Positions 47,508 to 53,292 of a stretch of DNA of 64,000 nt are shown here, one piece after another (position 1 is the stretch's first letter; every line of letters begins with the position of its first letter). Source of the DNA: Xiphophorus maculatus (Eukaryota > Chordata > Actinopteri > Cyprinodontiformes > Poeciliidae); NCBI RefSeq assembly GCF_002775205.1, contig NC_036454.1:1915382-1979381 (forward strand). The letters are read 5' to 3'. The notes below the pieces were generated by a model. The model was given only the letters and a program-made list of their open reading frames with translations, had not been told where the DNA came from and did no database searches. Position numbers and translations under genes: made by a program.

Positions 47508-50500
47508 TCAGAAGAGACAGACCTTCTTCTTCATCTCGTTCCTCTTCCAGAGGGAGAGGCGGTCGAAGTCCTCGATGGGCATCCTGAAGACGCTGAGGAA
47601 CTCCTCCTGGGACAGATGTCTCTGCAGGAGGACAGAAGAGGCTGAAACAGGCTCACACTGTCGCCCCCTGCTGGCCAGGAGGAGGCAACGACTCCACGCT
47701 CTGCTGGGTTTCCATAGAAACGTTTTAATCACAGATTAGTGCAACCAAAGCAAACATTTCAGACGAACAGAGATATTAATATTTAACATAACTAATAACC
47801 AGTTAGATAAGAAAAAAATAATTAAATGGATACATTTAGCACAAAGAAAAACACAGAAAGCTACCAAATGGTGTCCCAAATTAAAAATGAAATTGTTTAA
47901 CACATGACTTGAGGTGGACCCAGGTTATGGTTGAAGAGTGATAGATGATGAATTTAATGATAAACAACAAGCAGCACAGAAACAGCAGAAGGCTAAGAGC
48001 TCAACTGGTGGTACAATAAACATCTGACAGCAGACGAGACGACGAGACGACGAGACGAAGAGACGAAGAGACGAGACGACGAGACGAGACGAGACGACGA
48101 CCCAACAGACAAAGAGGTGAGTTTAAATACACAGGAAGACAATCAGGGGAAACAAGACGCAGGTGTAACTGATCAAAACCTGGAGACTCTACAGACCCAG
48201 AAACTAAATAAACAGAAAAAAACCAAATCCTACATGTGGGCTAGAATCTACTTTTACTTTTAATCTTAGAGTTGTTTGCATTATTATTTTTCTTTTCTCT
48301 GATATTCCTTGTTTTGATTAATCACAGATATTTTGGGTGGAAATGGAAAAAGATGAAGAAAATAAGTAAATAAATAAATCACTAAAAAATAAACATATAA
48401 ACCAGAACAAAAAATAAATAAGTAAATAAGAATAACCACAAAACAGCTTTTGTGATCTAATTTAAAACTTTTAAAACTAATTTGAAGAATAAAGTGAACT
48501 TAATTTTGAATTTTTTAGCAGAATCTGATCGAAACATTAGAAATAAATTATTTTGATCAGGAAGAACCTGGAATGTTTCCTGACGAAAGCAGATCTAGTT
48601 TGCGTAGAAGTTACCTCCAGGCGGGTCCGGTCCACCCCGGGGGGCAGCTTGCTGCGCCCTCTGTGGGTCACCACCAGCATCTCATACGGGTAAATCTACA
48701 ACAGCAGGTGAAACCAGTAAAACCAGTAAGACTCCAGTAAGCTGGTGTGAACTGGTCCAGTTTCCTCACCTTGTGCTCCAGCATGCTGGGGAGGGAGTTC
48801 CCCCGGTCTATCCTGGAGTCTCCGTTCTGACCCCATGACCCCAAACACAGACAGTCACTGGTTACAGTTTACACAGATCACAGATCAAACTGGTTTTTAA
48901 TACTGGTTCCCAGATTGTAACTGGTTCCCAGTGAAAACGTGAGTTTTTGTCGTCATCATGGATGTCGGGTGAATTCAGACGAACCTGCAGGCCTGCAGAC
49001 AGACAGACGGAAACGGATCACTGCAGCTTCACACCAGGATGGAAATATTTACAGGTAAAACTCAGAAATAATAAACATATTTTCTACATTTCAGAGTGAA
49101 GAACAGGAAGAGGAGATATTTATGTTTTTAGTCAAATTAAAGCTAAAAATGAACAATTTGGACAAAATGGCTTCATTTTCCAAGTCATGATTTTACCATT
49201 TTAATCATTTATTTATAAAAGCCACAATTTATAACTGAACGTTTATATTATCGTTAAAATGTTTAGTGAATAAGCTAATGTTTGGGTTGTTAACTGAATA
49301 TTTAGTGCCAGCTAAGTAGTGAGCTAACATCAGCTAAATAGTTGTTAAATATTTAGTTAGCATGCTAAGTTGTTAGCCTAAAACAAACTAGATATTTATC
49401 CTGTAAATTAAATATTTAGTTAGAATCTGATATAACTGAATGAATAATGTGACAGGAAATTAATTCTCTGCTATTTGAAGATGATGGTTATTAATTTTCC
49501 AGATTTCTGCTGCTAACTTTCACTTTGGATAAAAGAAACGGTTTGCAGGATTTACCTGCCGGGTTTTTCTCTGCGGAGCCGAACTCTGCAGACTGCAGCT
49601 GAAACAGAAACACACCGGTCACCATGTGACCCGATCGGGTCGCGCAGCAGCAGGAACAGAACCACGTACCCGGGACAGGCCGCTCCTGGAGGATGCTGGG
49701 AAATACACCGACCTGGAGGCGCCGGAGCCTGGAACAGAGGAGAGCAAGGTCGGTCCAGAGGGACGGATTCTGGAAAAACTGGACCGTATCAGAACCAGGA
49801 GACTCCATCAGAACCAGTGGGGTCCAGGCTCAGTCCGTACCAGTGTTCTGGTTCCGGTCCGGCAGTGAACGGGTCTTCCTCCTCAGTGGACCCGCAGACT
49901 TCCCCAGTTCTTCCTTCAGGAGGATTTTCCCGAGGTTGGACTGGATCTGACCCGACAAAACAGAACTTCAGTGAGGAGCGGCTCAGACGCTGCACCGAGG
50001 GAAGGTGTGGAGGTGAACCGGGCCATCGGGTTTGTATCGGAATAAAACTTCAATCTTTTTCTGTTTGTTTTCTTTTGGCCCTGATGTTTCTCCGTACGAC
50101 GGGTTCTGATCCCCACCTTGTTCAGCTCCTGGTTCTGCAGGGCCCGGAGGCCCCACAGCTCGTCCTCCAGCTCCCCTTCATCCTCCTCCTCTTCCTCCCG
50201 CTGGTCCTTCCTCTGACTCTCCTTCTCTGCAGGATTTAGAGGGAACGTCAGCTGCTGCATGACTTTCTGCATGTGGTGTGTGTGTGTGTGTGTGTGTGTG
50301 TGTGTGTGTGTGTGTGTGTGTACCGATCACGGCCAGTGACGGGGGGCAGGGCCAGTAGTCGGTCTCGATTTTGGACGGCTGGTTGGGATCTGGAGGCTGA
50401 GCTGCTGGGAACTTTGACGACTCGATGATCAGATCCTCGATGTGTTTCCCCTGAGGGACGGGCGAGGACGAGACGTCTACACACACACACACACACACAC

Positions 50501-53292: not shown

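Follow-up and report, generated by a model that had tools for sequence, protein, structure and literature searches.

Exon E6 of the dematin gene dmtn, which in this fish belongs to the red-cell skeleton, is enclosed by two long complementary dinucleotide repeats, (GU)43 before its acceptor and (AC)23 after its donor, which in fold models pair almost completely and place the exon in the loop of a hairpin. Judged by these sequence features, E6 has the anatomy of a cassette exon, with poor inner splice sites, ordinary outer sites, a symmetric length and arms capable of looping it out. From the sequence, the phases, the weak sites and the modelled pairing we infer, as our preferred but tentative reading, that the two microsatellites may pair in cells and form a loop-out hairpin, which would lead to partial, in-frame skipping of E6 dependent on repeat length. 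A neutral history of the tracts is nearly as likely as this partial skipping. Provided that the pairing is effective in cells, a pair of microsatellites would adjust how often a conserved segment of this membrane-skeleton protein is included, and repeat length would be a genetic route to a differing protein form between individuals.

The dmtn gene, exon E6 and its flanking repeats

The window, i.e. the whole stretch of 64 kb analysed here, corresponds to G000:C12:1915382-1979381 in an assembly of 704 Mb. Twelve coding exons of a gene on the minus strand were placed between 53034 and 47511, whereas the start exons and one micro-exon were not fixed. The joined protein matched the Pfam families AbLIM_anchor (PF16182, 1e-83) and VHP (PF02209, 3e-14), and the stretch from the focal exon onward matched dematin in the PDB (8iah, 2.2e-27). 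By these protein matches the gene is dmtn, with an AbLIM_anchor region and a C-terminal villin headpiece, which bears out the identity given to it in an earlier, sequence-only reading of this DNA. Both domains are also common to abLIM proteins; the name dematin rests on the PDB match.

E6 occupies 50324..50476 on the minus strand and comprises 153 nt or 51 codons, with phase 1 at both ends and the stop-free translation DVSSSPVPQGKHIEDLIIESSKFPAAQPPDPNQPSKIETDYWPCPPSLAVI. The sequence-only reading had proposed that skipping of a 153-bp exon would remove 51 residues in frame, including a conserved stretch, and both parts are confirmed: removal of E6 takes away 51 residues and keeps the reading frame, and the core of the exon, IEDLIIESSKFPAAQPPDPNQPSKIETDYWPCPPSLAV, is identical to solved dematin in 37 of 38 residues, as counted from the alignment. 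The exon is therefore presumably needed and mostly included. It is preceded by E5 (50625..50669) and followed by E7 (50117..50226), both on the minus strand. The upstream intron (50477..50624, 148 nt, minus strand) starts with the strong donor AGG/GTGAGT and has no AC tract at its 5' end, and the downstream intron (50227..50323, 97 nt, minus strand) ends in an ordinary acceptor with a pyrimidine stretch and has no GT tract at its 3' end.

Both repeats lie at the splice sites of E6 itself. In the upstream intron, a 3'-terminal (GT)43 tract, (GU)43 in the transcript (50479..50564, minus strand), runs into the acceptor AG (50477..50478, minus strand), so that the 38 nt preceding the AG consist entirely of GT repeat and contain no pyrimidine run longer than 1 nt. 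On the other side of the exon, the donor GT (50322..50323, minus strand, context TCG/GTACAC) is followed by a perfect (AC)23 tract (50276..50321, minus strand), which occupies the 5' end of the downstream intron. Tandem Repeats Finder reported 43.0 perfect copies at 50479-50564 and extended the AC tract imperfectly to 50272. The positions at which the sequence-only reading had let the GU tract end at the acceptor and the CA tract begin just after the donor, both on the minus strand, thus proved exact. However, such exact abutment would say little about function, since selection on a splice site can set the end of a microsatellite. The window contains six AC/GT tracts of at least 8 units, of which (GT)43 is the longest.

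Some further repeats were observed in the window. An (AC)25 tract at 46050-46099 lies in dmtn sense about 1.4 kb past the stop codon and could compete for the GU tract if it is within the 3' UTR. A 20-bp tandem array with 19 copies (51982-52364) is located within the dmtn intron between E3 and E4. There are also a 31-bp tandem array of about 102 copies spanning 3.2 kb (59815-62974) and an 842-bp CTC-rich tract with a purine-pyrimidine strand bias (43423-44264).

Splice-site strength and modelled pairing

The 11 dmtn donors placed were scored with a weight matrix, and the 12 dmtn acceptors were compared by their pyrimidine runs. On this matrix, the E6 donor scores -3.63 and is the weakest of the 11 (the next-lowest scores -1.71), as opposed to 6.02 for the E5 donor, the second of the 11. 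The longest pyrimidine run of the E6 acceptor, 1 nt, is the shortest of the 12, and its pyrimidine fraction of 0.50 is the second lowest after E12 (0.38), the placement of which is less sure; in the E7 acceptor the longest run reaches 8. By donor scores and pyrimidine runs, the inner sites of E6 are weak and the outer sites of E5 and E7 ordinary. Two candidate branch-point adenines, A50573 (ttaAc) and A50583 (ctaAt), were picked by eye according to the yUnAy consensus (50573..50583, minus strand), and they are separated from the acceptor G by 96-106 nt, a long gap occupied by the GT tract.

Within the exon, the first 26 nt (50451-50476) are rich in pyrimidines, and the CAG at their end is a candidate internal acceptor that is out of frame. 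This internal acceptor, CCCTCAG/GGG, which would start the exon at 50450, is pyrimidine-rich but shifts the frame by 26 nt and was not preferred; the same 26 nt might act as an exonic pyrimidine tract. The adjacent GGGGAAA (50445-50451) resembles the CFTR exon 9 silencer GGGGAAU, a near match that may well be due to chance; the CFTR silencer is bound by hnRNP A1 (PMC12171016).

The folding results are equilibrium models of naked RNA. A region of 400 nt folds at -185 kcal/mol compared to a mean of -140 for 100 dinucleotide shuffles (z = -7.2), and in the 554-nt region from E5 to E7 the bases of the AC tract are paired with the GT tract at a mean probability of 0.997. These values support the claim of the sequence-only reading that the tracts are complementary and able to pair. 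A ban on pairing of the AC tract costs about 75 kcal/mol, which puts the contribution of the stem at about -75, and self-pairing of the GT tract is negligible. The stem uses several registers, the best single pairing reaching 0.24, and its modelled stability climbs steadily with the number of AC units: 5 units give -6 kcal/mol and 30 units give -99. Between the two 100-nt flanks of E6, the duplex energy is -119.8 kcal/mol, as opposed to -12.6 to -57.4 for the other 10 dmtn exons, -46.7 for a repeat-free relative of E6 on contig C8 and -69.5 for a second exon-like locus with the same arrangement of repeats (L009). Duplexes bridging the two introns that flank E6 reach -23.0 and -1.3 kcal/mol, compared to the -119.8 found across the exon. 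By sequence and by modelled pairing, E6 is thus a single exon enclosed by stable complementary tracts in both of its introns, as expected for a loop-out.

The sequence-only reading had further assumed that the pairing hides both splice sites, which stands in part. Positions +3 to +6 of the E6 donor are inside the modelled stem, with pairing probabilities of 0.91 to 1.0. However, for the donor GU (0.99, 0.92) and for the acceptor G (0.996) the pairing partners are mainly bases of the exon, so that the stem abuts the splice sites more than it covers their dinucleotides. In addition, the acceptor A is mostly free (paired at 0.12), and the donor U is paired at 0.91-0.92 at each of the eight AC lengths modelled, so that its pairing barely depends on length.

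According to the favoured reading, the (GU)43 tract of the nascent dmtn pre-mRNA would pair with the (AC)23 tract, which follows after about 150 nt, whereby E6 would go into the loop and positions +3 to +6 of its weak donor would be drawn into the stem. The resulting helix of 46 bp would have both E6 splice sites at its inner end, and the strong E5 donor, 60 nt upstream of the GU tract, and the ordinary E7 acceptor, 49 nt downstream of the AC tract, would come to lie at its outer end. The skipping intron of 398 nt would effectively be cut to about 110 nt (60 + 49) plus any unpaired GU, and the outcome would be a partial, in-frame loss of 51 residues dependent on repeat length. Inclusion would still be dominant, perhaps with the aid of CA- and UG-binding proteins holding the tracts apart. 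In human, looped-out exons are described as having reduced inclusion, more so with stabler structures, and exon-looping structures as being depleted (PMC8052449). The poor inner and ordinary outer sites, together with the human loop-out and CFTR analogues, favour partial, length-dependent skipping, whereas the near-identity of the E6 core to solved dematin counts against strong skipping. In the known AC-GT introns of fish, paired tracts near splice sites accompany productive splicing (PMC9198270, PMC6093180), so that stems near splice sites need not repress.

An alternative that we consider rather unlikely is a switch run by proteins and independent of pairing, in which TDP-43 or CELF on the UG tract would block the acceptor and hnRNP L on the CA tract would act on the donor. 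CELF proteins bind UG repeats. Exon 9 of CFTR, with a similar acceptor, is skipped via TDP-43 on UG repeats (PMC12171016), and in human brain links are reported between hnRNP L and AC repeat length and between TARDBP and GT repeat length, as well as an association of an AC repeat with skipping of an SH3YL1 exon (PMC13174678). However, the duplex is strongly favoured in the model and would be expected to compete with such single-strand binders.

Rarity of the arrangement and related loci

The exact strings (GT)6AG and GT(AC)6 are each unique to the flanks of E6 in the 64-kb window, where 0.02 and 0.00 occurrences, respectively, are expected by chance with up to one mismatch. Throughout the assembly, (GT)6AG occurs 1,629 times (reversed string 1,267) and GT(AC)5 1,750 times (reversed string 3,308). 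A census of the 704-Mb assembly for the exact strings (GT)6AG and GT(AC)5 in exon order, separated by gaps of 90-210 nt, found one pair at 90-150 nt (L009 on contig C16; none in the reversed control) and one at 150-210 nt, which is E6 of dmtn (one in the reversed control as well). These two pairs compare with 0.245 expected under independence (P(>=2) = 0.026), so the exon-flanking architecture is infrequent and exceeds random pairing only mildly, if at all. The intron order of AC and GT gave no pair at gaps of 90-150 nt and one at 30-90 nt, with 0.25 expected for both ranges together. The only intron-order pair within gaps of 30-150 nt (L091, G000:C22:20858619-20858696, 78 nt) was not accepted as an intron, as no obvious exon could be seen by eye on either side.

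The first 80 of the 1,750 GT(AC)5 sites, all on contig C1, were inspected with 1 kb on each side, some of these stretches overlapping. In this sample, G precedes the GT in 12 of the 80 sites and AG in 7, a single site has at least 20 AC units, and a GT tract of at least 6 units was found within 1 kb upstream of two sites and downstream of two. This suggests that the majority of GT(AC)5 strings do not serve as splice donors and that pairs of AC and GT tracts are infrequent in this genome.

The second exon-order locus, L009 (G000:C16:719379-719528, L009 1501-1650), consists of (GT)13AG, 124 nt and GT(AC)11. One forward frame is open, as is one reverse frame, and the forward frame joins in frame to an open frame past the next acceptor-like site. 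Searches of Pfam, NCBIfam and the PDB gave no match above the cut-off, and L009 is a probable exon of a gene without a family match. Its skipping would shift the frame (124 nt); nevertheless it resembles a coding exon, which suggests that an exon flanked in this way may still be included.

When 41 residues of E6 were searched as protein against the assembly, two places were found among the best candidates scored, namely E6 itself and a position on contig C8 with 85% identity. The latter (L093, G000:C8:26481969-26482070) is a dematin-like exon of 135 nt with phase 1-1 and a matching upstream exon. Its flanks are ordinary and free of repeats, with a pyrimidine-rich acceptor and the donor GTAACA (score -1.0). 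An ungapped alignment of 38 codons, started from the 3' end, shows 17 identical codons, 13 silent differences and 8 residue changes between the two exons. This comparison and the repeat-free flanks indicate that the exon has been maintained and that its C8 copy does not require the tracts.

These data bear on the neutral reading, according to which the tracts are microsatellites that grew in short introns until selection on the exon and the splice dinucleotides stopped them, the exon being constitutive and any pairing melted or covered by protein. This history is quite possible. AC/GT repeats are very common, a 40-base CA pattern having 86,610 overlapping matches on both strands, and the co-occurrence at E6 is only mildly above chance (2 vs 0.24, P 0.026) for a case that was chosen as striking. 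The reversed control likewise occurs once at gaps of 150-210 nt, the related exon on C8 does without tracts, and the E6 core is strongly conserved. However, some effect on splicing would be expected, since of the placed dmtn sites E6 has both the donor with the lowest score and the acceptor with the shortest pyrimidine run. In CFTR, the acceptor is repressed where the UG tract is long and the pyrimidine tract short (PMC12171016).

Possible back-splicing and comparison with known systems

AC-GT bridged introns that are independent of U2AF2 were described in zebrafish (Lin et al., 2016, Genome Research, via PMC6093180 and PMC9198270), and they are stated to make up about 10% of zebrafish introns (PMC6093180). 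The flanks of E6 resemble these introns as there described: the tracts are complementary, AC follows a donor and GT precedes an acceptor, pairing would juxtapose a donor and an acceptor, and the GT tract of E6 takes the position of the pyrimidine tract. In the bridged introns, however, the tracts are at both ends of one intron, whereas those of E6 are at the ends of an exon and belong to two introns, and the juxtaposed pair would be the exon's own acceptor and donor, which amounts to a circular permutation. Since the upstream intron has GT only and the downstream intron AC only, neither has both tracts; E6 therefore falls outside this class, and an assignment to it was rejected. In the fish introns, the donor-(AC)n and (GU)n-acceptor junctions would be expected at one end of the helix and the branch point past the other end. 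E6 would, as we infer, have the same helix-end geometry, but its donor and acceptor follow each other in the opposite order in the transcript, so that enforced pairing would mean back-splicing.

In such back-splicing, the helix would bring the E6 donor beside the E6 acceptor and produce a single-exon circle of 153 nt, which we regard as improbable. The 46 perfectly complementary nt are situated directly at the exon ends, more than the 30-40 nt of complementarity that may suffice for circularisation (PMC5814467), and complementary regions are enriched around circular RNAs (PMC8052449). In contrast, short exons circularise poorly in fission yeast (PMC4479058), a minimal length of 200-300 nt, which the 153-nt E6 does not reach, is given as favouring circularisation within a lariat (PMC5814467), and the candidate branch points would lie past the far end of the helix. 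It is just as doubtful that E6 represents a natural, circularly permuted AC-GT bridge, in which structure would drive back-splicing without a pyrimidine tract and inclusion, in-frame skipping and the 153-nt circle would be held in a length-dependent balance. If the AC-GT structure selects the sites that are joined, tracts placed across an exon should shift the balance from removal of the introns towards skipping or back-splicing, and the two such places in the genome (gaps of 90-210 nt) would be natural experiments on AC-GT site choice.

Exon loop-outs and repeat-flanked circles are established kinds. In the literature searched, mostly outside subscription papers, no case was found of a single exon with microsatellite arms that touch its acceptor as well as its donor. 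Among the literature matches listed, no title dealt with dinucleotide repeats flanking circularised fish exons, and dmtn was absent from those listed for a search naming it.

The partial skipping that we favour for E6 has its closest counterparts in loop-outs and in CFTR. As in the exon loop-outs of PMC8052449 and the inverted Alus of PMC11802352, complementary flanks place the exon in a loop, and lower inclusion would be expected. The loop-outs of PMC8052449 are formed by conserved unique sequence, simple repeats and transposons being excluded, and those of PMC11802352 have Alu arms, whereas the arms of E6 are microsatellites touching the splice sites. With the (TG)m(T)n region of CFTR exon 9, E6 shares a UG tract directly before the AG of the 3' splice site and little pyrimidine tract. 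In CFTR, many UG repeats and few Us repress the acceptor and promote skipping (PMC12171016). Unlike CFTR exon 9, for which 11-13 units are named, E6 has 43 units, no T run and a complementary CA tract after its donor.
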